This document shows positions 42,733 to 57,748 of a stretch of DNA of 64,000 nucleotides, one piece after another. The position numbers were made by a program, and so were the translations under genes. Location: contig NZ_CP034463.1 of assembly GCF_003955715.1 (NCBI RefSeq), forward strand, positions 3,844,001-3,908,000. The letters are read 5' to 3'. The notes beneath the pieces were generated by a model. That model worked only from the letters and a program-made list of their open reading frames with translations, searched no databases and had not been told where the DNA came from. Positions within the stretch are counted from its first letter, which is position 1, and every line of letters begins with the position of its first letter. The stretch comes from Streptomyces aquilus (GTDB lineage Bacteria; Actinomycetota; Actinomycetes; Streptomycetales; Streptomycetaceae).

Positions 42733-43686
42733 TCAGCGCGGCAGGAGTCGTTCGACGCCTTCGCCGTGCAGCAGCTGCGTGATGTTCTCGACGAGGCCGC
42801 CGAGGTCGTCGGCCGGTCCGGTGGCTGCGACGCGGATCGCATCGCCGTGCGAGGGGTGGTAGACGGCGGCGTCGACTCTGATCCGGTGGGGCTTGTCGGT
42901 GTAGTGGGCGTGGACTGAGCAGGCGGTCTGGCAGTTGCCTTTGAGCTGGGCGAGGACGCCGCGCTCGACAGCCAGCAGCCGGGCGGTGGCGGGGTCGTTG
43001 ATGGCCTCGAGGAGGTGGGCGGCAATGGTGTCGCCGCTTCGCTGCTCGACGACGAGCGTGCCCGCGCCGGTGGCCGGGGCCAGCACCGAGACCGGGATGA
43101 GCTGTGTGGCACGGTCCGCCCGGGACACCCGGCATAGTCCGGCATAGGAGACCACGAGGGCGTCGAGGGGCTTGTCACCTTCGCCGGAGTCGAGGCGGGC
43201 GAGCCTGGGGATCAGGTTGCCGCGCACCGGCTGGATGGTGAGGTGGGGGTAGCGGGTGCGGAGTTGGGCGATGCGGCGCGGCGCGCTCGTGCCAAGGATG
43301 CTTCCGGGTGCGAGGTCGTCCAGGGTGGCGTCGGGCTGTCCGGCGGGGAGAACGAGGGCGTCCCGGGCGTCTTCGCGGGGCAGGACGGCGCCGATGGTGG
43401 TGTCGGTGCCGCGCTCGTGGGGCCCGGGGAGGTCTTTGGCGCACGAGACGGTGACATCGACGCGTGCGGCGGCCAGCGCCCGGTCCAGCTCGCGTACCCA
43501 TACGGCCTTGCCGCCGATCTGCGCGAGGGGACCCTGGTGCAGATCACCGGCCGCCTTCATCGGGACCACATGTACGGCGACTTGGGGGAAGGCGCGTTCG
43601 AGTAGTCCGGCGACGTGGGCTGCTTGGACCATGGCCAGGTCGGAGTCGCGGGTTCCGACGACGAGCTTGGGCGGGAGGTGGGTCAC
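42733..43686 (-). CDS. hemC: Hydroxymethylbilane synthase-like protein (divergent HemC paralogue)
   Basis: 317 residues, GTG start. HemC features in order: VVGTRDSDLAMVQAAHV, the KDLP segment holding the catalytic Asp (the usual HSxKD is SCAKD here), GTSAPRR for GTSSLRR, RGNLIPRLARLD, and the cofactor-attachment Cys region LKGNCQTACSVHA (usual EGGCQVPIG). The cofactor cysteine and catalytic Asp are kept, so activity is possible, but several binding positions differ. HemC joins four porphobilinogens into hydroxymethylbilane in haem and cobalamin synthesis. No other haem gene is nearby, so the protein may act on a related pyrrole. Its start overlaps the preceding small gene by GTGA. Confidence 0.88.
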   Translation of the reverse strand: MTHLPPKLVVGTRDSDLAMVQAAHVAGLLERAFPQVAVHVVPMKAAGDLHQGPLAQIGGKAVWVRELDRALAAARVDVTVSCAKDLPGPHERGTDTTIGAVLPREDARDALVLPAGQPDATLDDLAPGSILGTSAPRRIAQLRTRYPHLTIQPVRGNLIPRLARLDSGEGDKPLDALVVSYAGLCRVSRADRATQLIPVSVLAPATGAGTLVVEQRSGDTIAAHLLEAINDPATARLLAVERGVLAQLKGNCQTACSVHAHYTDKPHRIRVDAAVYHPSHGDAIRVAATGPADDLGGLVENITQLLHGEGVERLLPR

Positions 43687-43895
43687 GGACGGATCCTGTG
43701 GTCGGGGAAGTGGGAGGTGAGGAGGGTGACGATCATGGTGATGGCGAGGCCGACTGCGATCACGCCGAGGCAGCCCAGCAGGTCGCGCAGCGTGCTCCAC
43801 AACGGGTCGGCGGTCCACTTGCTGCGCCGCCGCTGACCACCGGGCCTGGCGGTACGCGGCGGGTGGTGGCGGTTAGTCGGGGGTGCTTGCGGCAT
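43683..43895 (-). CDS. Small single-span membrane protein
   Basis: 70 residues: a basic Pro/Arg-rich N-terminus, then one hydrophobic helix (CLGVIAVGLAITMIVTLLT) and a short tail SHFPDHRIRP. It overlaps the ABC exporter stop by 23 bases, and its stop overlaps the hemC-like start by GTGA, which supports it as a real gene of the operon. No family is recognised. It could be an accessory subunit of the exporter. Confidence 0.65.
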   Translation of the reverse strand: MPQAPPTNRHHPPRTARPGGQRRRSKWTADPLWSTLRDLLGCLGVIAVGLAITMIVTLLTSHFPDHRIRP

Positions 43896-45864
43896 GCGAT
43901 TCGCCGTTGGCCGAGGGAGTCGGCAGCACCAGTGGCGCGGTGCTGCCGTACTGGTTGGCCTGCATGAGGTACATGCGCCGGTAGGGGGAATCAGGTCGAG
44001 CCATGAGCTCCTGGTGGGAACCGCTCTCTACGAGGTGTCCCTCGTCCAGGACATAGATGATGTCGGCGTGCTGGACGCCGGCCATGCGGTGGCTGACGAG
44101 CACGACGGTCTTGCCCTCGTCGGCCAGGCGGCGGATGCGTTCGAAGGATTCGATCTCGGCCTCGGGGTCGAGGGCGGAGGTGGGCTCATCGGCGATGACG
44201 AGGCTCGCCTGCCGGTGCCGCAGCCGGGCTTGCCCGACCGTCTGCCACTGTCCCCCGGACAGTTCCTGACCGCCGCGGAACTGCCGGGCCAGCAGGGTGC
44301 CCAGACCACGGGGAAGGGCGGCGGCGAGCTTGTCGGCGCCCGAGTAGGCGGCAGCGCGGGTGATGTCGTCGTCCGCGTTGCGTTCCGGCTGGCCGATCTG
44401 GATGTTGGTCCGAAGGGTGAAGGGCCAGCGCTGGAAGCCCTGATCGAGAGCGGCCACGTGCCGGAAGATGTCCACCCGGTCGGCCTCGACGAGATCGGTC
44501 TGTCCCCACAGGATTCGGCCGGCCGTGGGCCGGTGCAGGCCGGCGAGGAGCTTCACCGCGGTGGACTTGCCGCTGCCGTTCGCGCCGACCAGGGCGATGA
44601 CGGCTCCGCGCGGGAAGGTCAGGTTCACTTCGTGCAGGGCGGGAGTGTCGCGTTCGGGGTAGGTGAACGACACGTTCTCGAAGGTGACCTGGTCGGGAAA
44701 GTCGCTTACGGGCTGTCCGCCTGTGGGGATGGCCCGGCGTTCGGCTTCGTCACGGAAGTGGTCGAGGTCGCGGACGTAGAGGGACTCCTCGTGCAGCCGC
44801 AGGATGTTGTCGACGAGGGCGCCCAGGCTTGCTGAGCCGGTGCGGATCGCGAGCGCGGCCGTGGCAACGGTGGCGGCGCTCATGTGGCCGGTCAGCCACA
44901 GCGCGCCCAGGCCGGCAAACGTGGCCGCCGACGCGAGGCCGGCCATGGCCGCGGCGATCAGTTCGGTGACCGCGCGGCCGTCGGCAAGGCGGGTCTGTTC
45001 AGCCTCGGCGGTCTGGCCCATCTCGTGGAAGTGATCGAGCAGGAAGGGGCCGACCTGATGGACGCGGATCTCCGTGGCAGATTCCCGGGCGGTGATGAGG
45101 TTGTTGACCAGGCGCTTGGCCCGTTCGTGCTCGATCCACTGCATCCGGGAGGCGTAGCGGCGCCGTGCCACGTGCATGGCGCCCCAGCCACGGGGCAGCG
45201 CGATGAGCAGCAGCAGGGGCAGCAGTACGGGGCTGAGGACCGTGACCACGCCGGCTGCGGCGATGAGGGAGAACACGCCGTTCACCACTGCTACGCAGAC
45301 GCCGATCATGGTGCGGGAGGACTGGGCGCCGAAGTACGCCGAGTCCAGGAGCGTGCGGAACTCGCCGTCTTCGATGGCCTCGAGTTCCGCGCGGGCAGCG
45401 CCCTCCAGGAACTGTTCGGTGGCCAGCCTCTCGACTTTCGGCTCCAGCCGTCCGGTGCCCGCCGTCGAAAGGCAGGCCAGGACGGTGCCGACCACGGCGA
45501 TGATGCAGCCGACGATCAGGGCCGGCAGCGCGGCGTGCAGCCGTGAGGCGTTGTCCCCGTCCTTGAGCAGGGCTTGGATGACCTGGTTGGTGACCAGCAG
45601 CCCGGCGGCTTGGGTGATGCTCTGGCCCACCTCGGCGATCCCGATGGTCAACAGGGCACGGCGGTCCGCCTGCCAGGCCAGGCGCAGGGTGCTGCCCACC
45701 AGCGTCGGAACCATCAGGGCGGCCTGCCCGAATTTGGTGTCCAGTCGCGCGTACTCGTGGCGTACCCAGCCGAAGTCGTAGCGCAGCGCCCCGCCGAAGA
45801 GCGCGACCTCGGACTCGGAGACGGTCTGTTCCGTCTTCCAGACCCGTTTCAGGAGCCGTTTCAT
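43873..45864 (-). CDS. ABC exporter (fused membrane and ATPase domains)
   Basis: Half-transporter of 663 residues. A transmembrane domain (about 55-320) has six hydrophobic segments. The ATPase domain has Walker A VGANGSGKST, the Q-loop in VAALDQGFQRWPFTL, signature LSGGQWQTVGQARL, Walker B LVIADEPTSALDP and switch VSHR. The signature LSGGQW is typical of exporters near peptide and natural-product genes. Its ATG overlaps the Nudix stop (ATGA). It would act as a homodimer, exporting a product of this operon. Confidence 0.92.
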   Translation of the reverse strand: MKRLLKRVWKTEQTVSESEVALFGGALRYDFGWVRHEYARLDTKFGQAALMVPTLVGSTLRLAWQADRRALLTIGIAEVGQSITQAAGLLVTNQVIQALLKDGDNASRLHAALPALIVGCIIAVVGTVLACLSTAGTGRLEPKVERLATEQFLEGAARAELEAIEDGEFRTLLDSAYFGAQSSRTMIGVCVAVVNGVFSLIAAAGVVTVLSPVLLPLLLLIALPRGWGAMHVARRRYASRMQWIEHERAKRLVNNLITARESATEIRVHQVGPFLLDHFHEMGQTAEAEQTRLADGRAVTELIAAAMAGLASAATFAGLGALWLTGHMSAATVATAALAIRTGSASLGALVDNILRLHEESLYVRDLDHFRDEAERRAIPTGGQPVSDFPDQVTFENVSFTYPERDTPALHEVNLTFPRGAVIALVGANGSGKSTAVKLLAGLHRPTAGRILWGQTDLVEADRVDIFRHVAALDQGFQRWPFTLRTNIQIGQPERNADDDITRAAAYSGADKLAAALPRGLGTLLARQFRGGQELSGGQWQTVGQARLRHRQASLVIADEPTSALDPEAEIESFERIRRLADEGKTVVLVSHRMAGVQHADIIYVLDEGHLVESGSHQELMARPDSPYRRMYLMQANQYGSTAPLVLPTPSANGESHAASTPD

Positions 45865-46430
45865 CGCGCCTCCGATACGACCGAGCTGGACAGGACGTGG
45901 GACTTGCCGTCGATCAGAGCGGCCGGCACACCAGCGAGGAGCGCGGCGTACGCCGCCTGGATGCGGCGGGCGAGGCGGTGCGGCAGCCGCGCGAGGGCCT
46001 CCTCGACGGGGAGGAACTCGGCGGCGCCGATCTCCCCGTCCGCGAAGCGCAGGGACTGCGTCTGCTGGTCGGTGAGGGGACCCACGTGGAACACCGTGAC
46101 GACCATGGCCCGCCCGTACCGGGCAGCGGGGACCTGGTCCAGGACGAGGAACCGGCCGATCGGTACGCCGGTCAGGTCGAGTTCCTCGGCCAGTTCACGT
46201 TCCAGGCCCTCGATCTGCGTTTCGTCTGCCTGGACCATGCCGCCGGGCATGTCGAAGCCGTCCTTGTAGGTCGGGTCAACCACGAGAATGCGGCCGTCAG
46301 CATCGGTGATCAAGGCCGTGCAGGAGGCCATGGGTGCCTCGAGCTGGGCCCAGTACGCCCGTTGCTCGTCGGTGACCACGCGGTCAGGGCTGCCGACAGT
46401 CTGTTCGGTCGTGTCAGGTTCGCCGGACAT
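45861..46430 (-). CDS. Nudix hydrolase
   Basis: 189 residues. The Nudix box lies in FDMPGGMVQADETQIEGLER followed by ELAEELDL, close to G-x5-E-x7-REUxEE, although the second half is ERELAEEL. RILVVDPTYKDGFDMPGG is the preceding strand. The ATG start is 86 bases after the two-domain Nudix gene, and the stop overlaps the ABC exporter start. The two neighbouring Nudix genes share the VVDPTY/VLDPAY wording, suggesting duplication within the operon. Confidence 0.9.
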   Translation of the reverse strand: MSGEPDTTEQTVGSPDRVVTDEQRAYWAQLEAPMASCTALITDADGRILVVDPTYKDGFDMPGGMVQADETQIEGLERELAEELDLTGVPIGRFLVLDQVPAARYGRAMVVTVFHVGPLTDQQTQSLRFADGEIGAAEFLPVEEALARLPHRLARRIQAAYAALLAGVPAALIDGKSHVLSSSVVSEAR

Positions 46431-46516
46431 GAGAGTCCTCCTCCAGGGCCAGAAAGGCGGTGCAGGGCGTCGCGCCGGCAGGACTCCGGCACGAGGGTGC
46501 GCGTCACGTGCGGACG

Positions 46517-47647
46517 TCAGGGCAGGAGGGCCGCCATGCCCGTGTGAGGGATCTCGATCGCGGCCTGCGGCGGACTCAGCGGAATCCCCCAGCGGATTGC
46601 CGCCGTTTGGGCCGCGTACTCGGCCTGTTCGACTCCGGCGCGTCCAAGGCCGAGCAGCTCGCTCGCCTGCACCGGGCTGACCAGCAGCCGACTGTAGGTG
46701 ATGCGGGTCGCGACATCCGGTGCCGCCGGCCCCAGGGAGTCGATGCGTGCGATGTAACGCGCCCGGGCGTTCGCCCCGGTGCCTGGGCCGTAGACCGCAC
46801 CGTCCGGATCGAGGAGGTAGCCGAGGTAGACGGCATCGTGCAGGCGCAGAGCCGCCTCTTCGGCGGCTTCACGCAGTGCTGCCGCCTTCGGCCCGTCATC
46901 GTCCGTTTCGACCGTTCCGCCCGGCAGGACGACATGGCCGTCGCGCGGATCCACGAGGACGACGACCCGGCCGAGCGGGTCGAATGCCCACACCCACGCT
47001 TGCTTCACGGGAAGGCCGGCGGCGGGCTCCATGGCCGGGTGCCATGCGATGTCCTGGTAGCCGATCGCAATACGCGGGACGACGTCCAATCGCTGCAGTG
47101 CCCGTCCGAGCCCGACGCTCTCACCGTCCTCCAGCACGGCGGGTCCGGCACGGTCGATCCGGGCACGCAAGGCAGCGAGCATCCGTCGCCTCTCGATCGG
47201 GCGCATGCGGCGTGCGGCCTGCGCCGGCGGAAGGAAGTGGAACGAGGTGATCTCGTTCTCGGGCAAGCGAATCCGGGCGATGTCGCTCTCCTCCAGGACG
47301 CCACCGTCCCAAATGGAGACGGTTTCACCGGGAAAGCCGCACACCGTCCCAAACTCCGGATTGCCCCTGCTGACCCAGTCCACCGCCAGCAGCTGGCGTA
47401 CACCGACGGACAGCCCGAGTTCCTCGGCCACCTCGCGCACCGCCCCGGCCGACGGCCGCTCCGCCTGGTCCACGCCCCCACCGGGCAACAGCAGCTTTCC
47501 AGGCCGGTACGCGGGATCCAGGACCAAAACCCTGCCCTCTGCATCGGTGAACAGCACCGCAGCCCCACCCCAGAAAACCGCGCGTGAACGCGCATAGTCC
47601 TCCGGCGCCATCAAACCCACCGGCTCACGCACGTCGTCAGCAGGCAT
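46517..47647 (-). CDS. Two-domain Nudix hydrolase
   Basis: 376 residues with two Nudix folds in tandem. The first box, GGGVDQAERPSAGAVREVAE then ELGL, is canonical. The second, GGTVETDDDGPKAAALREAA then EEAAL, has Asp in place of the first Glu and one extra residue, so it may be inactive or altered in specificity. The first half (RVLVLDPAYRPGKLLLPGG) resembles the Nudix at 45861. ATG start, overlapping the upstream Nudix stop by 11 bases. Tandem Nudix proteins can act as sensor-enzyme hybrids. Substrate unknown. Confidence 0.9.
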   Translation of the reverse strand: MPADDVREPVGLMAPEDYARSRAVFWGGAAVLFTDAEGRVLVLDPAYRPGKLLLPGGGVDQAERPSAGAVREVAEELGLSVGVRQLLAVDWVSRGNPEFGTVCGFPGETVSIWDGGVLEESDIARIRLPENEITSFHFLPPAQAARRMRPIERRRMLAALRARIDRAGPAVLEDGESVGLGRALQRLDVVPRIAIGYQDIAWHPAMEPAAGLPVKQAWVWAFDPLGRVVVLVDPRDGHVVLPGGTVETDDDGPKAAALREAAEEAALRLHDAVYLGYLLDPDGAVYGPGTGANARARYIARIDSLGPAAPDVATRITYSRLLVSPVQASELLGLGRAGVEQAEYAAQTAAIRWGIPLSPPQAAIEIPHTGMAALLP

Positions 47648-48083
47648 CGGGCCACCCCACCGTGCTCGCGCTCTGGCCCCGCTGAATACAGATCAGGGCC
47701 TGGCGGGTGTAGCGCACGAGCTTCTCCGGCAGAGCCGAGAGCGGCCACCACCGTAGCTCTGCACACTTGTCCGGTTCTGCGGCATGAGGCCGCCCGGCGT
47801 ACTGATTGGCGGTGAAGAAGACTTGGAGCCGACTCTCGCGAGTCTTGGGGTCGTAGTCGTGGACCGTGTGCGCGACCACCAAGTCCGCCTCTTCGAGAGC
47901 GATGCCCAGCTCCTCCCGAGCCTCACGGACCATGCCGGCGAGGAAGGACTCACCCTCCTCAAGATGGCCGGCCGGAACATGCCACCAGCCGTCACACCAA
48001 GCGGTGCCTGCACGGAGACCGAGCAGCACCCGGTCACCCTGAACCAGGACTAAGTGAAGTCCGATCACACAACGGTGTGGCAA
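47637..48083 (-). CDS. Nudix hydrolase (MutT-like), first gene of the minus-strand operon
   Basis: 148 residues, TTG start with AAGGAG six bases before it, the best-placed start in the frame. The box GHLEEGESFLAGMVREAREE then LGI is canonical. WWHVPAGHLEEGES and VHDYDPKTRESRLQVFF fit MutT-type enzymes that sanitise oxidised or modified nucleotides. Its 3' end overlaps the two-domain Nudix gene. The frame continues far upstream, but that stretch shows no protein-like content. Confidence 0.88.
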   Translation of the reverse strand: MPHRCVIGLHLVLVQGDRVLLGLRAGTAWCDGWWHVPAGHLEEGESFLAGMVREAREELGIALEEADLVVAHTVHDYDPKTRESRLQVFFTANQYAGRPHAAEPDKCAELRWWPLSALPEKLVRYTRQALICIQRGQSASTVGWPDAC

Positions 48084-49143
48084 GACCTTCTCCTTCTCGA
48101 CATGCCGGTGGCGAAGGACAGTTGATCGCGCAGGCCGCAAGGCAGGCCCTCGGGTGCAGGACGACCCGTTCTGGGAACGCGGCACTTGCGCACGCGGCCT
48201 CGTGCCACGTAATGGCATGGGTTGGGTCAACGCCTCAGCAGGAGCGTCGGGGCGATATCGACGGCGCCTGACAGGCAGCACACACGGCACAGCGGGGCCT
48301 CCCGAGCATAAGGAAAACAATGCGTACGCCGCCTGTGACCGCAGCGACTCGGGTGCCCGTTGCCGGACTCCGCCGAGTCTATCTAGCCTGAGTCCTAAGG
48401 TCGTTGGGCAAATCGGTGTTCGCGACGCTTCCACTCGTTGCGGTACTTCTCCGGAGCCTCGGGCGCGTCGCGGCGTACGACGACCGGGCAGCCGAGCCGC
48501 GACAAGGGCTGTCGCCCGCGCGTCCTCGCGTGTCGACTCCAGCGTTCCCGGGCAACGGCTGCCGGAGGCCACCGGCGATCCATCGCCGCCCCGAGTCTCC
48601 AAACTCCGCACACAGCCACTCGACGCAAGAACCTGTTGCCTGGGCGACGGCAGCAGCACGGGCCGTCGAACGAGTAGATGTGTCGTTGACACGAAAATGC
48701 CTAACACCCCTGCGTCACAGCACAGATAGACTCGTCAACGTCCGGCAACGGGCACCCGGGCGTCGCGGTCACAGACGGCTTTGGACAGGATTCTTCGTCC
48801 CCGGGAGCGCCGTCTCGTGACGCCACGTTCATGCCAGAGCCGACTCGCCAACGAGTTCACCGTTGTCGACGTCGACCACCTCGCTCAGCACGGATCCGGC
48901 CCGGCTGGAGGCCGCCGAACGCGCGCTGCTGGACCGCGCCTTTTCCCCCTCGCTGAGCGCGTTGCTGCCTGGCGCGAGACCCGGGTAGCGACCCTCGATC
49001 GGCGCCCGCCTCCCTGAACCCTTGCCTCCAGGTGGGGAGCGATCCTACTCGCCGCACGCCTGAGCCGAGTCACCGCCGTTGCAACGCCGCCCAACCCGTG
49101 GGCTGGGCGTTTCCACGTCGTCTGCCGATCGAAGGAGGGCGTC
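48084..49143. other. 1.06-kb divergent intergenic region
   Basis: It separates the minus-strand Nudix operon from the plus-strand UGM operon and should contain both promoters. ORFs of up to 138 codons exist on both strands but have no recognisable content or ribosome-binding sites. A 41-residue TTG-start frame (48863-48988) reading STDPARLEAAERALLDRAFS looks protein-like and may be a gene remnant. Confidence 0.55.
49088..49109 (+). promoter_or_regulatory. Hairpin in the leader of the UGM operon
   Basis: CGCCCA and TGGGCG enclose a further CCC/GGG pairing and are followed by TTTCC. The structure lies 35 bases before the UGM start codon and could be an attenuator or a terminator of upstream transcription. 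Confidence 0.35.
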
Positions 49144-50574
49144 ATGCCCCACCCCACGCACACGCCAGACACCGGCCGGATCGTCATACTCGGGGCCGGA
49201 CCATGCGGTCTGGCCTGCGCCGACGAGCTGACCCGCCTCGGCCACCGCGACTTCCTGCTGCTGGAGTCCGCGTCCACCCCAGGCGGGCTCGCCTCCTCCG
49301 TAGTGGACGCGGCCGGCTTCACGTGGGACCTGGGCGGCCACGTGGTCTTCTCCCACTTCGGCGAGTTTGACCGGCTGCTGGCCGATCTGTTCACCGCAGA
49401 GGAACTGCTGTACCACGACCGCTCCTCCTACATCCGCTACGGCGACGGATGGATGCCCTACCCCTTCCAGCACCACCTCCATCACCTCCCGCCAAGGGAC
49501 GCTACGGCCTGCCTTAGTGATCTCCTGGCTGCACGTCACGTCAGCAGCGGGGAACCCTCGGCACCGGCGGACTTCGCGACGTGGCTGGGCACCATGTACG
49601 GGCAGGCCCTGGTGGACCGCTTCTTCGCCCCGTACAACACCAAGGTCTGGGCGACGCCGCTTGAGGACATGGGTTCGGCGTGGGTGGCCGAGCGGGTGGC
49701 CCCTGTAGAGGTCGAGGAGATTCTGGCCGCGTTCGCCGGAACCGCAGCACCCGCGCGCCGGTGGGGTCCGAACGCCACCTTCGCCTTCCCCACGTCCGGC
49801 GGCACGGGCGAAATCTGGCACCGGCTCGCCGTCCGCATCGACGCTGGCCACCTGCGCACCCAGACTCACGTGGTCGCCGTCGATCCCACCACCCGCACCG
49901 TCATCCTCGCCGACGGCGAGAGAGTCGGCTACGACCACCTAGTGGCCACCGGCCCGCTCGACCAGCTCACCGCCATGACCGCCACATGCCCGTCCTCGCT
50001 CCGGACGGCCGCCCGGAGCCTGCGGCACACCACCGTGGCCATGGTCGGCCTGGGCTACAAGACACCGACCACGGACAGCCGGTCCTGGCTCTACTTCCCG
50101 CAGCCCGACATCCCCTTCTACCGGGCCACGAACTTCAGCAAGTACGCACCCGCCAACGTCCCCTGCGCCGACACGGGCACCTACAGCGCCTGGATGACCG
50201 AGACCTCCCTCGCCGCCGGCCAAAGCCTCGACCACCATGCTCTGGTCCGCTCGTGCGATCAGGCACTTCGCCGTCATGGCCTGGTGCCCGAGCACACGCC
50301 GCTCGCCAGCACCCATGTCGAGGTGATCCCGTACGCCTACCCGGTGCCCACCATGGGGCGGGACGAGGTCTTGGCGCAGGTAGTGCCGTGGATGGAAGCC
50401 CACGGGATCTACCCTCGGGGCCGGTTCGGGACCTGGCGCTATGAGATCGGCAACATGGACCACGCGGTCAAGATGGGCATCGACGTCGCCCGTCGCCTGC
50501 TGAACGGAACGCCCGAGGAACTCCTCGCCTCCGCACCCGCCCTGACCGCGGTCCGGGTGGAGTGCCGATCATGA
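49144..50574 (+). CDS. glf: UDP-galactopyranose mutase, eukaryotic type
   Basis: Flavoenzyme of 476 residues, ATG start after GAAGGAGG. FAD-binding VILGAGPCGLACADEL (14-29) and GGLAS are followed by GGHVVFSH, whose His66 corresponds to the conserved His next to FAD in fungal UGM. Other blocks match fungal and protozoan UGMs far better than bacterial Glf: YPFQ, PYNTKVWATP, WVAERVA, WGPNATFAFPTSGGTGEIW, PFYRATNFSKYAP and GRFGTWRYEIGNMDHAVKMG. The Arg residues in ERVA and FYRAT that hold the UDP diphosphate appear retained. It should interconvert UDP-galactopyranose and UDP-galactofuranose in the cytosol, or act on a related nucleotide sugar. It leads a seven-gene operon with glycosyltransferases. 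Confidence 0.88.
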   Translation: MPHPTHTPDTGRIVILGAGPCGLACADELTRLGHRDFLLLESASTPGGLASSVVDAAGFTWDLGGHVVFSHFGEFDRLLADLFTAEELLYHDRSSYIRYGDGWMPYPFQHHLHHLPPRDATACLSDLLAARHVSSGEPSAPADFATWLGTMYGQALVDRFFAPYNTKVWATPLEDMGSAWVAERVAPVEVEEILAAFAGTAAPARRWGPNATFAFPTSGGTGEIWHRLAVRIDAGHLRTQTHVVAVDPTTRTVILADGERVGYDHLVATGPLDQLTAMTATCPSSLRTAARSLRHTTVAMVGLGYKTPTTDSRSWLYFPQPDIPFYRATNFSKYAPANVPCADTGTYSAWMTETSLAAGQSLDHHALVRSCDQALRRHGLVPEHTPLASTHVEVIPYAYPVPTMGRDEVLAQVVPWMEAHGIYPRGRFGTWRYEIGNMDHAVKMGIDVARRLLNGTPEELLASAPALTAVRVECRS

Positions 50575-51656
50575 CCGGCGCGAAGACGGCCATGGTGATG
50601 TTCGCCGGACACCGCTTCCACGCCGTCACCGACGTCGCCTTCTACGCCGCCCAAGCGCGGTACCTTCGGGCCTTCGTCCCCGAGCGCCAGCTCGCCCCAC
50701 CGTGTGGGGAGAAGACGACAGTCCGGATCCGCCACGACGCGGGCTCCTTCCAGAACCGGATCGCCCGCGCCGCGGGCGCCCCGTCACTGACCGTGGTGCC
50801 GTTCCGCGGCGAGCCGTACCGCTCCTGCCAACTCGAACAGATCACCTGGTGGCGGCCTGGCCCCGACACGCATCTGCCCCAGGACCACCTCTACGCTCGG
50901 GATGCGGCAGGTCGGCTATCCGTGCTCCTAACCCCTGGAGCCGAGCGCGGCGAGCGGTACCTGATGCGCGTCGTCCGCGAGGTCGTGATGCGCTGCGCCG
51001 AGAATCGCGGCTTGACCTCCTTTCACGCCGCAGCCGCTGCCCTCGACGACCACGGCGTGCTCATCGCCGCCCCCTCCGGGTCGGGCAAGACCACCGTGCT
51101 GACCGCGCTGGCCGCCCACCGCGGGGCCGACCTGATCGCCTCCGACCGAGCGCTGATCACCGCCGACGCCGGCGTGGTGGCCGGAGTGCCGATCTCCGTC
51201 CGGATCGGCGGCGGCACCCTGTCCGCAGTCGCCCCGCGCGAGGGCCTGCCGAAACCGCACACGCTGCCCGACGCATTCGGCAGCAGCCGAAAAGCTGCCC
51301 TGACCCCACGCGAGTTCGCCCGCGCCTTCTCCTCTCGCGTGCAGGAGACGGCGCCACTGCGGCTCGTAGTCATCCCACAGCTCCGCGAGGAAGACCACAG
51401 CCTGGGCAGCCGCGTCCTCGGCGCGGCGCAGGCCCGCACCGCTCTTGCCGCGGCATGCTGCACCCCGCACGACGAGGACTGGCGGGAGCCCTGGTTCGCC
51501 GTCCGGACGCGGCCCGTGGACGACCTGGCCTGCCAAGCCGCCGCCCTCATCGAGAACCTCATCGCCACGGTGCCCGTCCTCGCGATCACGGCCGGCGTAC
51601 ACAGTCCTGCCCTGTTGGAGCGGATCGCCGACACGGTGACGGGGAGGCTCCCGTGA
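50571..51656 (+). CDS. HPr-kinase-like P-loop protein
   Basis: 361 residues, ATG overlapping the UGM stop (ATGA). Walker A APSGSGKTT lies at 167-175 after SFHAAAAALDDHGVLIA, the arrangement of the HprK C-terminal domain and its relatives in RiPP and polysaccharide clusters. LIASDRALI supplies an acidic residue after the P-loop. The N-terminal 150 residues are unlike the HPr-kinase regulatory domain. No PTS HPr gene is present, so the substrate is probably a sugar or small molecule made by the operon. Catalytic function is inferred. Confidence 0.8.
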   Translation: MTGAKTAMVMFAGHRFHAVTDVAFYAAQARYLRAFVPERQLAPPCGEKTTVRIRHDAGSFQNRIARAAGAPSLTVVPFRGEPYRSCQLEQITWWRPGPDTHLPQDHLYARDAAGRLSVLLTPGAERGERYLMRVVREVVMRCAENRGLTSFHAAAAALDDHGVLIAAPSGSGKTTVLTALAAHRGADLIASDRALITADAGVVAGVPISVRIGGGTLSAVAPREGLPKPHTLPDAFGSSRKAALTPREFARAFSSRVQETAPLRLVVIPQLREEDHSLGSRVLGAAQARTALAAACCTPHDEDWREPWFAVRTRPVDDLACQAAALIENLIATVPVLAITAGVHSPALLERIADTVTGRLP

Positions 51657-52204
51657 CACCCAGCCGTATAGCCCTGATCGGACCGGTCGCCTCGGGCAAG
51701 TCGACGCTGGCCGCAGCGCTCTCCGCCCACACCGGCCTGCCCGGCATCGACCTCGACGAGCTGTTCTGGGGGCCCGATTGGACTCCCCTGGACACACCCG
51801 TCTTCCACAAGGGCGTCCGTGACCGCCTCGCCGGACCGGCGTGGATCGCGGACGGCAACTACGGCGGCGAGGTCGCCGAGATGCTCCTGGAACGTGCCGA
51901 GCTGGTGCTGTGGCTCGATTTGCCGCTGCGGGTCTGCCTGCCCCGGCTGGTCAGCCGCTCGCTGCGCCGGGCCGCCACCGGCGAAGAGCTGTTCGCCGGA
52001 AACCGGGAGACCTTCCGCCACTTGCTGGCCCCGGACTCCATCCTGCGCTGGGGGCCTCTGCACCACCACCGGCACCGCCGACGCTGGTCCGAGCGCCTCC
52101 ACCCCAACCGCACGGCCGGCTTGACTGTGGTGCGCCTCGACCGGCCCGCCGCCATCACCGCGCAGCTGCGCCGGCTCGGCCTGCTGCCCGCAACAGAGAG
52201 GTGA
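51653..52204 (+). CDS. Small P-loop kinase (adenylate-kinase / topology-modulator-like)
   Basis: 183 residues, GTG start overlapping the preceding stop (GTGA). Walker A is GPVASGKST at 10-18. GIDLDELFWGPDWTPLD and ADGNYGGEVAEMLLERAELVLWLDLP are hallmarks of the AAA family of adenylate-kinase-like proteins often named FlaR or topology modulation protein. RLVSRSLRRA is the lid region. It phosphorylates an unknown small substrate. The gene sits between the HPr-kinase-like and glycosyltransferase genes. Confidence 0.88.
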   Translation: MTPSRIALIGPVASGKSTLAAALSAHTGLPGIDLDELFWGPDWTPLDTPVFHKGVRDRLAGPAWIADGNYGGEVAEMLLERAELVLWLDLPLRVCLPRLVSRSLRRAATGEELFAGNRETFRHLLAPDSILRWGPLHHHRHRRRWSERLHPNRTAGLTVVRLDRPAAITAQLRRLGLLPATER

Positions 52205-52209
52205 CGCGC

Positions 52210-53229
52210 GTGATCGCCTCCGTCGTCCGCGTGCCCTGGCACACCGCCCACGGCGGCTACGACCGCCTGCTGGACCACCTGCCCGACGTCCGCCGCATCG
52301 CCCCGCCCCGACACCCGGGTGCGCGGCTGGCCTTCACTGCCGCCCACCGCGTGCTCGGTCCTCAGTGCCCTCTGCCGTTCTACCCGGCCGAGCACTTCGC
52401 CACAGATCTGCGCGTCCTCACCTCCCGCCAGCCTGCGCACGTGCTGTACGGGGACGAGCAGTTCTGGTTCTCCCGTCACCGCACCAGGCCGACGGCCGTC
52501 ACCTACCACCAGCCACCCGACCAACTTGCAGGGCTGGTGCCGATGCGGGTATGGCGGCGCCTGGCTTCGCGGGCCGAGCAGATCATCGTCCTCGACCCTC
52601 ATCAGCAGGCGTTCTTCTGCAACCTGATTCCGGAGAAGCGCGTGCACCTGGTGCCGCACGGCATCGACACCGCTGCCTTCACGCCCGCCGCCACAGCGCC
52701 GGAGCCCGGCCGGCCGCTGGTGCTGACCGTCGGCTGGTGGCTGCGCGACTTCGGCACCCTCGATGCTGTCCACCACCTCCTGCACCGCCGCCACGGCGGA
52801 GAGATCGAGCTGACTGTCGTCACCCGGCAGGCCGCCTCGCGCCCCTGGCACCCGGCCGCCCGCGTACTCGAAGGGATCAGCGAGCAGGAACTGATCAGCC
52901 TGTACCGGCGGGCGGCGTTCTTGCTGCTGCCCCTGAACGGGGCGAGCGCCAACAACGCTCTGCTGGAAGCGCTCGCCTGCGGTACCCCGGCCGTCGTCAC
53001 GGATATCGGCGGCATCCAGCACTACACCGGAAACGGCCCGTCAGCCGTCCTCGTCCCACCCGGCGACGTCCCGGCCGCAGCCGACGCCGCCGACAAGCTC
53101 CTTGCCGAGCTGGGCACCGCCGACCACACCGCACGGCGCGTGGCCGCCCGGGAGCGGGCCGAGTCCTTCGCCTGGCCGCTGGTCGCCGACCAAGTGCGCA
53201 CCGTCTACCGGCTGCTGGGGGAAGGATGA
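52210..53229 (+). CDS. Glycosyltransferase, GT-B fold (group 1 / GT4-like)
   Basis: 339 residues, GTG start 5 bases after the kinase stop; an in-frame GTG 9 bases upstream is possible. The N-domain has HTAHGGYDRLLDHLP. The linker strand is LVPHGIDTAAFTP. The C-domain has LVLTVGWWLRDFG and the nucleotide-sugar motif LLLPLNGASANNALLEALAC, ending in GTPAVVTDIGG (E-x7-E with Glu-Ala-Leu-Ala-Cys-Gly). It transfers sugar from a nucleotide donor in the cytosol. With UGM encoded upstream, UDP-galactofuranose is one candidate donor. The stop overlaps the next start by ATGA. Confidence 0.9.
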   Translation: MIASVVRVPWHTAHGGYDRLLDHLPDVRRIAPPRHPGARLAFTAAHRVLGPQCPLPFYPAEHFATDLRVLTSRQPAHVLYGDEQFWFSRHRTRPTAVTYHQPPDQLAGLVPMRVWRRLASRAEQIIVLDPHQQAFFCNLIPEKRVHLVPHGIDTAAFTPAATAPEPGRPLVLTVGWWLRDFGTLDAVHHLLHRRHGGEIELTVVTRQAASRPWHPAARVLEGISEQELISLYRRAAFLLLPLNGASANNALLEALACGTPAVVTDIGGIQHYTGNGPSAVLVPPGDVPAAADAADKLLAELGTADHTARRVAARERAESFAWPLVADQVRTVYRLLGEG

Positions 53230-54812
53230 GCGCCGCCAACGTGTGGTTGGACGTTGTGGTGCCGGTGCTCGTGACCGGGCTGCTGGTCCGCGCGGTCTGG
53301 GCCGCCCTCGCGGTCGAGGCGAGTGCGCGGTGGCTGCTGTCCGCCTCCGCCCACCGCCCCGCCGACGAGGATGGGGAGGCGCCGTGGCTGGTGGTGCTGC
53401 TACCGATGCTCCGCGAACAGGCCGTCGCCGCCCAGTCGATCGCCGCGTTCACCGGGCTCGACTACCCCACCGGCCGGGCGGCCGTCGCGGTCATCACCAC
53501 CGAACGCGAGCAGACTGCCCGCGCCCAGCACCGCGCTCGCCTACCGGAGCTCGCCGCGCTGCCCATACTGACGGCATCCCAGCTGCGGGGCCTGTTCCCC
53601 GCCGCTCGCTGCCCCGCCGTTGCTGACACCGTCAACACCACCCCGCCCGGCGAACGCCTGGAGGTGCTGACTGAGCGGTTCGACGCCGAGCCGAGCACCG
53701 CCGACATCGTGACCGCCCTGGCCACCGGCCCCACGAGCGGGCTGCCGCTGGCGCATCTGCACCAGCCCGACGTCGGGGGCCGAAAGCCCGGACAGCTCAA
53801 CTTCGCCCTCGACCGCCTCCCCGACCTGCTCGGGCCGCTCGGCTGGTGCGAGGACACCCACGCCCACGACACCTTCGTCCTGGTCTACGACGCCGACGCC
53901 GTCCCCGACACGGCCACCCTGACCGCCTTCGCCGACGCCGCCGCAGCCCACCGGGCACGCATCGGCCGGACGCCGGCACTGATACAGCAACAGCGGCTCC
54001 CTCTGCTCACCCGCCGCCCCTTCCCGCGCGGCATGGCCGGCCTGCTGCTGACCGAGGAGTGGGTATACCAGCTGCGGCGCTCCCTCGGCATCGAACTCGC
54101 CCGCGTACGCCTCCACCAGTGGCTCACCCGCTCCCGGCTCCCGGAGCCGGTCCGGACGTGGCTGCGGCCGATGGTGTACGCCGTCGGATGCGGCATGGCC
54201 GTCCACCTCCCGGCCCTGCGCAGGCTCGGCGGCTTCCCCGAACCGATGGAAGACCTCGGCACCGGTCACCGCCTCTCCCTCCTCGGCGCCGACTTCGCAC
54301 CGTCCACCGCTCTCGTCCTCGACGAGCCCTACACCGACACCGCCGGACTGACCAACCTCCACGCGCTCGCCTTCACCGCGTCGGCACGACCTGACCGCCA
54401 CGCCCGAGAGATCGCCCACCTGCCCAGCGCCCTCCCCCGGCCGGCCAGGGCCGCCCTCGTACTGCGGGAGTGGGCGGACGAAGCCGCCTGGCTCGTCGGC
54501 GCACCGCTGCTGACCGCCGCCGTGGCCAGCGCCTGGTGGGCAGGCCCTCTCTGGGCCGGGCTCGCCGCAGCCGGCGTCCTCCTTCACGGCCCCATCACCA
54601 CCTGCCGGCTGCTCGCCCTGGCACCGGCTCTGCACCACCGCGTTATCCCGCCCGCCACCACCGAGCCACCGCCGCGCGCTGCCCCAGCGCGTGCGATCGC
54701 GGTCGTCGCGGCCAGCCCCTTCCAGCCCTTCATCCGGCTGGGCGGGCCCTGGCGGCTGATCTGGGCCAAGGCCACCGGACGCCGCCTCGGCTTCGGCAAG
54801 ACTGAACGCTGA
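53226..54812 (+). CDS. Membrane glycosyltransferase, GT-A/GT2-like
   Basis: 528 residues. An N-terminal helix (VVVPVLVTGLLVRAVWAAL) is followed by a GT2-like domain with WLVVLLPMLREQ, the DxD in LVYDADAVPD, QLNFALDRL and MEDLGTGHRLSLLG as the acceptor/base motif. A hydrophobic pair near 430-490 (LLTAAVASAWWAGPLWAGLAA) anchors the C-terminus. It is longer than simple GT2 enzymes because of an insertion around 130-190. The likely role is sugar transfer at the cytosolic membrane face. ATG start overlaps the preceding stop by ATGA. Confidence 0.85.
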   Translation: MSAANVWLDVVVPVLVTGLLVRAVWAALAVEASARWLLSASAHRPADEDGEAPWLVVLLPMLREQAVAAQSIAAFTGLDYPTGRAAVAVITTEREQTARAQHRARLPELAALPILTASQLRGLFPAARCPAVADTVNTTPPGERLEVLTERFDAEPSTADIVTALATGPTSGLPLAHLHQPDVGGRKPGQLNFALDRLPDLLGPLGWCEDTHAHDTFVLVYDADAVPDTATLTAFADAAAAHRARIGRTPALIQQQRLPLLTRRPFPRGMAGLLLTEEWVYQLRRSLGIELARVRLHQWLTRSRLPEPVRTWLRPMVYAVGCGMAVHLPALRRLGGFPEPMEDLGTGHRLSLLGADFAPSTALVLDEPYTDTAGLTNLHALAFTASARPDRHAREIAHLPSALPRPARAALVLREWADEAAWLVGAPLLTAAVASAWWAGPLWAGLAAAGVLLHGPITTCRLLALAPALHHRVIPPATTEPPPRAAPARAIAVVAASPFQPFIRLGGPWRLIWAKATGRRLGFGKTER

Positions 54813-54846
54813 ACACCTCAACCTCCAAGCAAGAGTGGGAGCCCCC

Positions 54847-55317
54847 GTGGCTGAAACCGTTACCGCGACCGTCCGCAACGCCGCCAAGGCCGTCGTCCTC
54901 CATGACGGCCACGTCCTGCTCCAGCGCGCCCACTGGGAGGGACAGGACTGCTACTTCCTTCCCGGCGGAGGCCAGCACCCCGGCGAAGCCCTCGGCACCA
55001 CGGTCCGCCGCGAGGTCCACGAGGAAACCGGCCTGGACGTCACGCCCGAGCGCCTGCTGTGGCTGCGCGAGTACATCGGCGCCCACCACGGCGGCGCCCC
55101 GGAGGACCACCGGGTTGAAGCGATCTTCCTGTGCCGGCCCGAAGGCGACCCGGGCCCGCTCGGCGGCCACGCCGAAGACGACGTGCAGACCGGGCTCGAA
55201 TGGGTGGAGCTAGAGAAGGTTCCCGGCCTCAACCTCCTGCCCCAGGGCCTGCGGGGACCGATCGCCGACCTCGCCCACGGCGAGCCTCCCACCCGCTACC
55301 TCGGCGACATCGCCTGA
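54847..55317 (+). CDS. Nudix hydrolase
   Basis: 156 residues from a GTG preceded by GGGAG; another in-frame GTG lies 12 bases upstream. The box GGQHPGEALGTTVRREVHEE then TGL is a perfect Nudix signature. AAKAVVLHDGHVLLQRAHWEG and a C-terminal VPGLNLLPQGLRG fit ADP-sugar or nucleotide-sugar pyrophosphatases. Its place in a nucleotide-sugar operon suggests control or clean-up of an activated sugar. The stop lies 2 bases before the next start. Confidence 0.92.
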   Translation: MAETVTATVRNAAKAVVLHDGHVLLQRAHWEGQDCYFLPGGGQHPGEALGTTVRREVHEETGLDVTPERLLWLREYIGAHHGGAPEDHRVEAIFLCRPEGDPGPLGGHAEDDVQTGLEWVELEKVPGLNLLPQGLRGPIADLAHGEPPTRYLGDIA

Positions 55318-55319
55318 CT

Positions 55320-56090
55320 ATGAGGATCGACGGCCGCGTCCCCGACGACGCCACCGAAATCACCACCGGCCAGGCCAACCGCGTCTGGTACATCGGCGGA
55401 CGCGAGCCGTACATCCTCAAGCACTACAGCGACCCGGCCCGTGCCGCCAACGAGGCCGCCGCCCTCGCCCTCCTCACCCACCACCGGGCCCCCAGCCCCC
55501 GCCTGCTGCACGCCGACGTCGAAAGGCAGCCGGCCTGGACCGCCCAGAGCGTCGTCCAGGCCGAGCCCGTTCCCGCCGACCAGTTCCTGGATGAACTCGT
55601 CGGCCCCCTCGCCGCAGTCCACGCCATCCCCGGAACCCACTTCGGGCGCCTCGCCGGAGCCACCCGCCACCACACCTGGCGCGACTACCTCCACGACCGC
55701 CTGAACCTCTACACAGCCACGGCACCCGATCTCGCTACTGCCGCAGCAGCCCTGCGCCGAGACCTCGACCGAGTGAACCTCGAGATCGAGCCCCGGCTGC
55801 TCCACCACGACCTCCAGCCCGGACACCTCCTCCGCGTCCCAGAGGGTCCACGGCTCCTGCTGGACTGGGAACTCGCCGCTTTCGGCGACCCGATATCCGA
55901 CCTCGCCCGCCTCGCCGTACGTCTACGTCTGCTCTCACCTCAGCCCATGCTCACCCATAGGCCCGCCCCAGCCGATCAGCGGCGCCTGGACCTGTACTGG
56001 CGCCTCCATCTCCTCGCCGATGCGGCTCTGGGTACCGACCCGGGAGTCCGCGCACACGCCCTGGCTCTCACCACCGGCACCAGTACATGA
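55320..56090 (+). CDS. APH/choline-kinase-family phosphotransferase
   Basis: 256 residues, ATG start. Protein-kinase-like fold: YILKHYSDPARAANEAAALALL (Lys and Glu of the N-lobe), the catalytic loop LLHHDLQPGHLL with Asp (the usual metal-binding Asn is His here), and LLLDWELAAFGDPISDLARL supplying the second Asp. It probably phosphorylates a small molecule such as a sugar, alcohol or aminoglycoside. It is the final gene of the UGM operon, so a biosynthetic or self-resistance kinase is equally likely. Confidence 0.85.
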   Translation: MRIDGRVPDDATEITTGQANRVWYIGGREPYILKHYSDPARAANEAAALALLTHHRAPSPRLLHADVERQPAWTAQSVVQAEPVPADQFLDELVGPLAAVHAIPGTHFGRLAGATRHHTWRDYLHDRLNLYTATAPDLATAAAALRRDLDRVNLEIEPRLLHHDLQPGHLLRVPEGPRLLLDWELAAFGDPISDLARLAVRLRLLSPQPMLTHRPAPADQRRLDLYWRLHLLADAALGTDPGVRAHALALTTGTST

Positions 56091-56300
56091 GGTGAACAGC
56101 CGCAGGTGGCTTCGACAGTCTTGACTGGCCCCGCGCGTCAGCTTGCCAAGTGAGGTCAGGAAGTGCTGGCAGAGCCACGCGGGCCCGTCATCGGCCGTCG
56201 AGGCGGAAACGAGCAGCCGAGTAGCGCACTATGGGGCAAAATCCCGATGGCCGTCAGCGAAGAGGGAGTTGGTGAGACTCAGCCAGCGCCTGAAGGAGTC

Positions 56301-56867
56301 CTACACCCGCGTGGTGGACTGCCACTCTCGATCGAGGATCGCGTGCACGACGGAGTCCCGCCATTTGCCGCCTTTCAGGACGTGCTCGCGGATCGCTCCT
56401 TCCTCAACCATGCCGACAGCAGCCATCGTCTTGGCCGAGGCGTCGTTAAGAGGAGATCGCGCTCCCCAGATGCGGTGAAGACCCAAATCGTCGAACCCGA
56501 CGCTGAGTAGCAACCGCACCATCTCCACGCCGTATCCGACGCCCCAGGCATCTGGACGCAGTGCGAAGCCCATGGTGGCTCCGCGCTGCTGATGTGGATC
56601 GGCGGCGAGACGGCCGAACCCGATCAACTCGTTCGTGTCCCGTTCGATGACGGCGAGCGCGTATTCGATGCGCGGAGTCGCTCTCGCCGAGGCAATCGAC
56701 CTGGCCGCCATCTGGGCCACCTCTTCACGGCTACGCGGTTCGAACGACAGGTGCTCCGTAGCTTCGGGGCTGCCGTAGATGGCCAGCACCGCATCCACGT
56801 CCTTAACGGCGAGTTCACGCACAGCAAGGCGTGGGCTAGAACGATCGACCGGATGCATGGAATACAT
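56301..56867 (-). CDS. GNAT N-acetyltransferase (RimJ/RimL type)
   Basis: 188 residues, ATG start with AAAGGGA seven bases before it; longer GTG starts lie inside the upstream gene. The fold is that of ribosomal-protein and small-molecule acetyltransferases: LAVRELAVKDVDAVLAIY, IGFGRLAADP, the acetyl-CoA loop RPDAWGVGYGVEMVRLLL and LHRIWGARSPLNDASAKTM. The start codon overlaps the phosphotransferase stop by one base (TGATG), so the two are coupled. Substrate unknown. Confidence 0.9.
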   Translation of the reverse strand: MYSMHPVDRSSPRLAVRELAVKDVDAVLAIYGSPEATEHLSFEPRSREEVAQMAARSIASARATPRIEYALAVIERDTNELIGFGRLAADPHQQRGATMGFALRPDAWGVGYGVEMVRLLLSVGFDDLGLHRIWGARSPLNDASAKTMAAVGMVEEGAIREHVLKGGKWRDSVVHAILDREWQSTTRV

Positions 56868-57748
56868 CACATGATCCCTTTCCAGCTCCACGGACGCGGC
56901 TCGGCACGACCGCGCAGGCAGTCAACGCGGTACTGAGCCTCAGCCTGCCGCTCGGGCCGCGTCGCGGCGTACTGGGCCGCGTATGTGGTCATGCGCAACT
57001 CACGAACCCCGGCGAGAAGGCCGTACCCCTCCCACTTCGTGACGTCCATGCCGTACGCAGCACAGAACTCGGCATACGCCGCTGCGGTCACGGTGCCGGT
57101 CGTGGACACTTTGACCGCCATGGACACCAGATCCCACTCTGGCGGCCCGACGGAGGCACGCTCGAAGTCCAGCAGTACCGGACCGTCCACCGTACGCACG
57201 ACATTGCCCACCCATGCATCGCCGTGCACGACACACTCGGGCAGGCCCCGAGGCCGGTGCTCCCACTGCTCGCGAAGTTCGGCATGCCGATCCCGTAGCC
57301 AGGCGCGATCGTCCTCCGTCAGCGACGTGGCCGCCTCGATACGCTCGGTCACTCGGACGAACGGGTCCAGCCGGTCGAGCGGCAGGTCCGGGACCGGCAA
57401 CGGGTGGAGTTGCATCAGCAGCGTGACAACGTCCATGACGCTGCCGGTCTCGTGCGGCGGGAGCTCGGCCCAAAAAGTCACGGGCCGTCCTCCGGCCTCG
57501 ATGGGCTGCTCGGACGGCAATGCGCGCACGGCCGACACTCCGTTGTCGGCGAGCCACCGGGCCACGAGGACCTCGCGCAAGGCAGCCTTCCACTGGCCGG
57601 CGCGGGCAATACGGACGATTACGTTGCTGCCAAGGCGCCAGATCTCGTTCTCGGCGAGGCGGACGGGCTCGGCACCTGCGGGGTCGAAGCCTGCTAGGGC
57701 GCAGGCTTCTTCTAATACAGCGCGGGCGGCTACAGCCGAGATCGTCAT
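56867..57748 (-). CDS. Aminoglycoside-phosphotransferase-family kinase
   Basis: 293 residues. N-lobe LAENEIWRLGSNVIVRIARAGQ, catalytic loop CVVHGDAWVGNVV with His-Gly-Asp and the Asn metal ligand, then VLLDFERASVGPPEWDLV. All key residues of the APH family are in place. The mRNA is apparently leaderless: TACCTT ends 6 bases before the ATG. The gene is coupled to a GNAT gene, a pairing reminiscent of modification and resistance functions, but no antibiotic substrate can be inferred. Confidence 0.92.
   Translation of the reverse strand: MTISAVAARAVLEEACALAGFDPAGAEPVRLAENEIWRLGSNVIVRIARAGQWKAALREVLVARWLADNGVSAVRALPSEQPIEAGGRPVTFWAELPPHETGSVMDVVTLLMQLHPLPVPDLPLDRLDPFVRVTERIEAATSLTEDDRAWLRDRHAELREQWEHRPRGLPECVVHGDAWVGNVVRTVDGPVLLDFERASVGPPEWDLVSMAVKVSTTGTVTAAAYAEFCAAYGMDVTKWEGYGLLAGVRELRMTTYAAQYAATRPERQAEAQYRVDCLRGRAEPRPWSWKGIM

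Follow-up and report, generated by a model that had tools for sequence, protein, structure and literature searches.

A predicted eukaryotic-type UDP-galactopyranose mutase at the head of a conserved seven-gene cassette in Streptomyces aquilus

Seven tightly packed genes were identified on the same strand of the window, that is, the whole stretch of 64,000 nucleotides of Streptomyces aquilus DNA that was analysed. The first of them is predicted to encode a UDP-galactopyranose mutase (UGM), and the order of the cassette is as follows:

49144..50574, plus strand: UGM, eukaryotic-type UDP-galactopyranose mutase, 476 aa, cassette gene 1, as judged from homology, residues and trees
50562..51656, plus strand: HprK/PEPCK-like P-loop kinase, 364 aa, from a GTG start at 50562, with a weak TIGR04352 match, predicted fold and Walker A motif
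51653..52204, plus strand: small P-loop kinase-like protein, 183 aa, with 4-base overlaps on both sides and AAA_18 and SKI matches below cut-off
52201..53229, plus strand: GT4 glycosyltransferase, 342 aa, with Pfam Glyco_trans_1_4 and Glycos_transf_1
53226..54812, plus strand: membrane GT2-like glycosyltransferase, 528 aa, a candidate furanosyltransferase from predicted fold and motifs
54835..55317, plus strand: NUDIX hydrolase, 160 aa, from Pfam
55320..56090, plus strand: APH-family phosphotransferase, 256 aa, the last cassette gene, with Pfam APH on slightly longer frames

The HprK-like ORF overlaps the UGM gene by 13 bases when read from the GTG start, or by 4 bases when read from an in-frame ATG at 50571, which would form an ATGA overlap with the UGM stop. 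Each of the next three junctions is a 4-base overlap; the NUDIX gene starts after a gap of 22 bases and the APH gene after one of 2 bases. The cassette genes are presumably co-transcribed. The Pfam domains of the GT4 protein were found on a longer ORF (51841..53229), for which the shorter start at 52201 was selected. No structured RNA was found at Rfam gathering scores in window 47500..57000. Upstream of the UGM gene, a non-coding inverted repeat (window 48350-48439 and 48669-48758) has 90-nt arms that are 72% complementary and 229 nt apart; it had no Rfam match and was partly present at the cassette locus L015 as well. On the minus strand upstream of the cassette (window 42733-48707), there are a porphobilinogen-deaminase-like gene, an ABC transporter and three NUDIX genes, one of them with two NUDIX domains. 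Related ABC and NUDIX genes were likewise found upstream of the UGM gene of another Streptomyces locus, L093.

The ORF at 49144..50574, with its ATG at 49144 and its stop ending at 50574, is a genuine gene for a protein of 476 aa at the coordinates that the original prediction gave. The five sequence blocks that the prediction quoted were all present in the translation, and the matches below show that they do not reflect chance. Its third-position GC (GC3) was 0.87, and a ribosome-site-like gaaggaggg was located just 5' of the ATG. When compared with solved chains by phmmer, the protein matched 4dsg with 319.6 bits (E 2.6e-94) over residues 10-465, nearly the whole chain, and 3ute with 306.3 bits (E 2.8e-90). 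The best 14 PDB matches listed, which were 4dsg together with Aspergillus fumigatus entries and variants, were all named UDP-galactopyranose mutase, and the next match had an E value of 1.6e-05. We take 4dsg to be the UGM of Trypanosoma cruzi, in line with a T. cruzi UniRef entry that it matches at 97%, and the organism of some of those 14 entries is likewise presumed. The query resembled 4dsg and 3ute in full-length homology and in a length near 480 aa, and its identity to the eukaryote clade described below (16 rows) was 35-38%.

The bacterial Glf model TIGR00031 gave only 22.1 bits on the protein, against a curated cut-off of 303.75, and identity to six actinobacterial Glf proteins was 20.6-23.4% in loose alignments. 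Classical Glf shares with the query the superfamily, the presumed chemistry and a Met at the isoalloxazine contact, but it lies apart in the tree, and an identity as classical Glf was rejected. A search of the genome itself with the UGM protein returned the protein and one weak match of 22 bits, and no Glf above the TIGR00031 cut-off was found in 31 genomes (this genome and 30 relatives), so that the UGM gene is the sole UGM candidate found in its own genome. Glf proteins above the cut-off were present in 14 of 100 drawn Actinomycetota genomes.

If the protein were instead a UGM look-alike, either a flavin amine oxidase or an oxidase of the protoporphyrinogen type, this would account for the Pfam Amino_oxidase match (E 2.5e-21) and for the source names of close homologues, such as 'protoporphyrinogen/coproporphyrinogen oxidase'. 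However, the Pfam domain is a superfamily domain common to UGMs, and the protein scored below the equivalog cut-offs of all 18 NCBIfam families listed, the best being PRK07208.1-4 (177 of 389 bits), with 20 bits against a cut-off of 517 for the protoporphyrinogen oxidase model. The oxidase annotation was rejected on these cut-offs. The UDP-Galp site is also kept and two glycosyltransferase genes follow downstream, and we consider an oxidase very unlikely. The sequence evidence strongly supports the class of eukaryotic-type UGM for the product of 49144..50574, and the original prediction of this type rather than bacterial Glf was borne out by the 4dsg and 3ute matches, the low TIGR00031 score and the residues described next.

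The 26 positions of A. fumigatus UGM (AfUGM) given in the accessible text of PMC3624792, namely the ligand contacts of its Table 3 together with the His-loop residue Gly61, were mapped on an alignment of 75 UGM rows, and the query was the same as AfUGM at 22 of them. All 13 substrate contacts of that table were kept, including the sugar contacts R182, N207 and N457. The two-glycine His loop (AfUGM G61 G62 H63, query G64 G65 H66) was GGH in 75 of 75 rows, as invariant as the uracil contact Gln107 (query Q109) and Asn207 of the 200s flap (query N210). In the same accessible text, UGMs are split into prokaryotic and eukaryotic groups, the His loop and Gln107 are assigned to the eukaryotic group, the loop and the 200s flap are described as unique to eukaryotic UGMs, and Gln107 is given as absent from bacterial UGMs. 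The diphosphate contacts R182, Y317, R327, Y419 and Y453 of AfUGM correspond to R184, Y317, R327, Y399 and Y433 of the query, so that the GGH loop, the uracil Gln, the flap Asn and the diphosphate Arg/Tyr set are common to the query and the T. cruzi and A. fumigatus enzymes.

The four positions at which the query differs from AfUGM are all flavin contacts (T18 to C21, D38 to E41, Q458 to M438 and S461 to A441). These differences, which hold for the query's clade, would be in keeping with a furanose mutase of the same chemistry that acts on a different nucleotide sugar, such as UDP-arabinopyranose, UDP-GalNAc or a deoxy sugar produced elsewhere, and that feeds a natural product rather than Galf. 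The identity of only 35-38% to the eukaryote clade, the absence of a recognised nucleotide-sugar-making gene among the seven cassette genes, and a related UGM within a PrnB-like/GHMP/PLP-decarboxylase cluster resembling natural-product genes point in the same direction. However, all 13 substrate contacts, among them the three sugar contacts, are kept, and we regard another sugar as unlikely. Galactose is the likely sugar of the mutase, as judged from these residues.

A quick tree was built from 81 rows, hand-picked from at least 240 listed protein matches and from fetched loci. The query did not group with bacterial Glf and fell in a 40-row clade (SH-aLRT 100) whose rows of known source are all actinobacterial. 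The eukaryote clade comprised 16 rows (support 97), of which eight are named or EukProt eukaryotes and eight are metagenome proteins assigned by tree position only; it lay inside a 28-row clade (100) with proteins of Gemmatimonadota, Sumerlaeia and Acidimicrobiales (Actinomycetota). A careful tree of 56 rows, which left out the six Glf and 19 other rows, gave support of 100/100 to the query's 30-row clade, 100/98 to the 13 eukaryote-clade rows and 100/100 to 21 rows of eukaryotes and bacteria. The sampling held one fungal row and no animal or plant rows, and the trees were rooted on very distant Glf or on a single Desulfuromonadales row. Of the other-bacterial rows, the five closest to the T. 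cruzi UGM, among them P0217 from a Sumerlaeia bin, share 53-55% identity with it, and the A. fumigatus UGM shares 49%.

The original prediction had offered cross-domain transfer or an ancient split as the origin of the gene. Entry of the UGM into Streptomyces from a fungus or protist would fit the fact that the closest solved structures are eukaryotic UGMs. Against it stand the place of the query in a fully supported actinobacterial clade and the AU tests on the quick tree, which rejected holding the actinobacterial clade together with the eukaryotes (p 0.0045) and joining the Streptomyces-type rows to the eukaryotes (p 3e-37), both groupings having been picked after the tree was known. AfUGM position 458 also separates the two groups: all 40 rows of the query's clade have Met there, and all 16 eukaryote-clade rows have Gln. 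We consider such an entry extremely improbable, and a recent transfer from a eukaryote to Streptomyces is rejected by the trees and AU tests on the present sampling; the ancient split fits. In the sequence trees, the query is a member of an old bacterial lineage of the eukaryotic-type UGM family, set apart from the T. cruzi and A. fumigatus enzymes by its bacterial clade and operon setting and by Met and Ala in place of Gln458 and Ser461. Because the eukaryote clade is nested among bacteria, the trees suggest, without proving, that eukaryotes acquired UGM from bacteria. At position 458, the 19 other bacterial rows had Gln (12), Met (6) or Thr (1). Met is probably the older state, since classical Glf enzymes carry Met at the isoalloxazine contact (Table 3 in the accessible text of PMC3624792).

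In the rows compared, the eukaryotic-type UGM group also includes bacteria, namely Actinomycetota, Gemmatimonadota, a Sumerlaeia bin and a Desulfuromonadales bin. A fungal UGM clade appears in the accessible text of PMC8092308. The bacterial members bear on the origin of eukaryotic UGM and supply enzymes for studies of structure and mechanism. The enzyme belongs to a known family, in a little-noticed bacterial branch. Many proteins of this type are named protoporphyrinogen oxidase or FAD-dependent oxidoreductase in databases, so that the furanose-making capacity of Streptomyces may be overlooked. A literature search found no paper on eukaryotic-type UGM in bacteria or on this cassette, which, given its partial coverage, is weak evidence of novelty.

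Coupling of the mutase to two glycosyltransferase genes, the other element of the original prediction, is supported by the overlapping GT4 and GT2 ORFs and by their conserved order; the four further genes of the cassette were absent from it. The GT4 protein matched Tll1590, maltose-1-phosphate synthase and inositol-3-phosphate glycosyltransferase. The GT2 protein had only a Pfam match below threshold, and a Pfam domain was listed for none of the 84 homologues that turned up in 8000 scored candidates; those with a name come from Streptomyces, Kitasatospora, Micromonospora, a Streptomycetaceae bin and an Actinomycetota bin. Its AlphaFold model (pLDDT 89.4) had cellulose synthase, PcManGT and hyaluronan synthases as best fold matches. 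The protein resembles these membrane GT2 synthases in its predicted GT-A fold, in DxD (here DAD) and ED motifs and in long terminal helices, and it has hydrophobic N-terminal and C-terminal stretches. In contrast, identity to them was 8-17% with TM at most 0.58 among the matches listed, and unlike them the protein forms a family of its own with no listed Pfam domain.

The annotation of the cassette kinases and of the NUDIX and APH proteins is weak or generic. The HPr kinase-related model HprK_rel_A (TIGR04352) gave 31.2 bits on the product of 50562..51656, against a cut-off of 200. Its five structure models, built from only 10 sequences, had pLDDT values of 54.8-76.6, and in Foldseek the low-depth model with pLDDT 76.6 matched PEPCK (E 1.2e-07) and HprK/P (E 1.3e-04) with TM at most 0.50. 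A Walker A motif is present, and profile comparison with solved structures returned only weak AAA-ATPase P-loop matches. The protein may share its fold with HPr kinase/phosphorylase and PEPCK, as these matches and the Walker A motif suggest, but at the sequence level its score does not place it in the TIGR04352 family. The small P-loop protein had profile matches to adenylate and cytidylate kinases. The NUDIX protein has an intact Nudix box and its solved relatives are generic MutT/NUDIX proteins, and the APH protein weakly matched choline kinase and hygromycin kinase. None of the seven genes codes for a flippase, an exporter or a carrier-lipid enzyme.

The UGM gene was found in 12 of 392 Streptomyces genomes at E <= 1e-40, and a family member in 15 of 296 Actinomycetota genomes at E <= 1e-100, the present genome being included in both counts. 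A scan of named genomes gave 41 loci, including Streptomyces, Kitasatospora, Micromonospora, Microthrixaceae and a Desulfuromonadales bin; eight of these (L048 to L055, E 4e-5 to 1e-3) were short weak matches and were left out. Among 30 distinct genomes whose UGM match reaches 55% identity or more, a sample biased by the use of UGM as bait, all seven genes were detectable in one order and strand in 23 (window, L015 to L027, L040 to L042, L097, L098, L100, L129, L130 and L131), with L003, L004, L099 and L132 counted as duplicates of L015, L017, L021 and L097. A gene was broken or split in four of the 23: the UGM gene lies in two frames in L041, about 1 kb interrupts the HprK-like gene in L020, and the P-loop gene consists of two adjoining pieces in L042 and is split by about 1.1 kb in L131. 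The other seven genomes had UGM and GT2 only (L028), a second cluster (L093 to L096), or UGM fragments with partner genes not seen (L044 and L047).

A tblastn search pointed to five Streptomyces plasmid records, and four were examined. A 114-kb plasmid was typed as mobilizable with a MOBP relaxase, and plasmids of 561 kb, 639 kb and 2.8 Mb were typed as non-mobilizable. Since its flanks differ beyond close relatives, the cassette behaves as a transferable module. In L130, on a linear plasmid of Streptomyces sp. NBC_01334, the cassette is located a few kb from the BREX-2 genes pglZ and brxD; no BREX-2 genes were present in the stretch examined of the two other annotated plasmid copies. A role in anti-phage defence was rejected, as PADLOC matches were weak or local and concerned four of the seven proteins, the best (E 4e-12) being to a 'desaturase' model with its best stretch at UGM residues 12-55.

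The GT2 gene (E <= 1e-15) was present in 19 of 392 Streptomyces genomes, including all 12 with UGM (hypergeometric P 2e-18, a statistic that ignores kinship). Eight of these 12 carry the cassette and four the second cluster. Of the seven genomes with GT2 and no UGM, three carry partial cassettes. In G175, APH, NUDIX, GT2 and a GT4 without the N-terminal 63 residues form a truncated copy of uncertain cause, and genes upstream of GT4 were not seen in the 0.7 kb before the contig end. G013 and G060 hold cassette remnants. The G013 remnant (L122, 4285-10282), a decayed cassette with the 3' part of GT2, NUDIX and APH, occupies the same site as in the window and adjoins the same GNAT and APH genes. 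In G066, G081, G126 and G131, a GT2 34-35% related lies in a PrnB-like/GHMP/PLP-decarboxylase cluster, and no UGM was found in these four of the 392 genomes searched. The GT2 therefore need not be a Galf transferase, and these four genomes speak against a strict link between GT2 and UGM across the wider GT2 family. We name the GT2 as candidate transferase on the ground that L028, L093 to L096 and the cassette all retain it as a partner of UGM.

The second Streptomyces UGM cluster (L093, L095, L096 and partly L094) has a UGM 60-62% identical and a GT2 29-31% related to those of the cassette. By Pfam, L093 (8980-18178) contains UGM, a DSP-like phosphatase, GT2, PLP decarboxylase, APH, NUDIX, a PrnB-like protein and GHMP kinase. 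Several of its ORFs recur with matching starts in L095 and L096, and L094 was checked for UGM, GT2 and NUDIX only. NUDIX is shared with the cassette, as is APH in L093, whereas the phosphatase, decarboxylase, PrnB-like protein and GHMP kinase of L093 replace the HprK-like protein, the P-loop kinase and GT4. The second cluster looks like uncharacterised natural-product genes. UGM-free relatives of it, with GT2 (34-35%), PLP decarboxylase, GHMP kinase and a PrnB-like protein, were seen at L123, L124, L126 and L127.

We consider it probable that 49144..50574 encodes an FAD-dependent UDP-hexopyranose/furanose mutase, most likely converting UDP-Galp to UDP-Galf, at the head of a mobile furanosyl-transfer cassette. 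From the family, the active-site residues, the phylogenetic place, the conservation of the cassette and its plasmid carriage, we infer, as the best explanation, that the enzyme is catalytically active, that galactose is its sugar, that the genes are co-transcribed and share out the work as set out below, and that a (phospho)furanosyl glycoconjugate or small molecule results. As judged from homology to the T. cruzi and A. fumigatus enzymes, catalysis would start at the anomeric carbon C1 of UDP-Galp with an attack by N5 of the reduced FAD; ring opening through an iminium would be followed by re-closure as a furanose and re-addition of UDP. Flavin N5 attack, iminium and furanose closure are given in the accessible text of PMC3624792, as is the finding that NADPH reduces TcUGM but does not effectively reduce M. 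tuberculosis UGM. The membrane GT2, possibly with GT4, may then transfer the furanose to an acceptor, perhaps a phosphorylated one. Phosphorylation of the acceptor or sugar could fall to three proteins (HprK-like, small P-loop kinase and APH), and the NUDIX enzyme could trim nucleotide intermediates.

The original prediction had suggested galactofuranose or a related furanose in a glycoconjugate or natural product, and a furanose-containing product is also our best guess for the cassette. More tentatively, and with clearly less confidence than in the mutase itself, the seven genes may form a self-contained mobile pathway to an undescribed phosphorylated furanosyl metabolite or glycolipid. In that case the eukaryotic-type mutase would provide the UDP-Galf used by membrane GT2 furanosyltransferases of a new family, the HprK/PEPCK-fold kinase would act on the sugar or acceptor, and this bacterial class would be the ancestor of the kinetoplastid, chromerid and fungal UGMs rather than their descendant. 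The cassette, whose GT2 family is known from few actinobacterial genera only, offers a compact starting point in the search for a new furanosyl product. According to the accessible text of PMC13390465, an Actinoplanes polysaccharide may contain galactofuranose.

In the wider actinobacterial clade, seven neighbour proteins of UGM relatives, picked by eye from five loci, were two flippases (Polysacc_synt), one Wzy_C, three PMT_2 and one sulfatase; the flippase, Wzy and PMT-type neighbours count in favour of the mutase reading. UGM-like proteins 25-28% identical were also seen on the faecal phage contigs MT835622.1 (12152-13330) and MT835980.1 (8610-9854).
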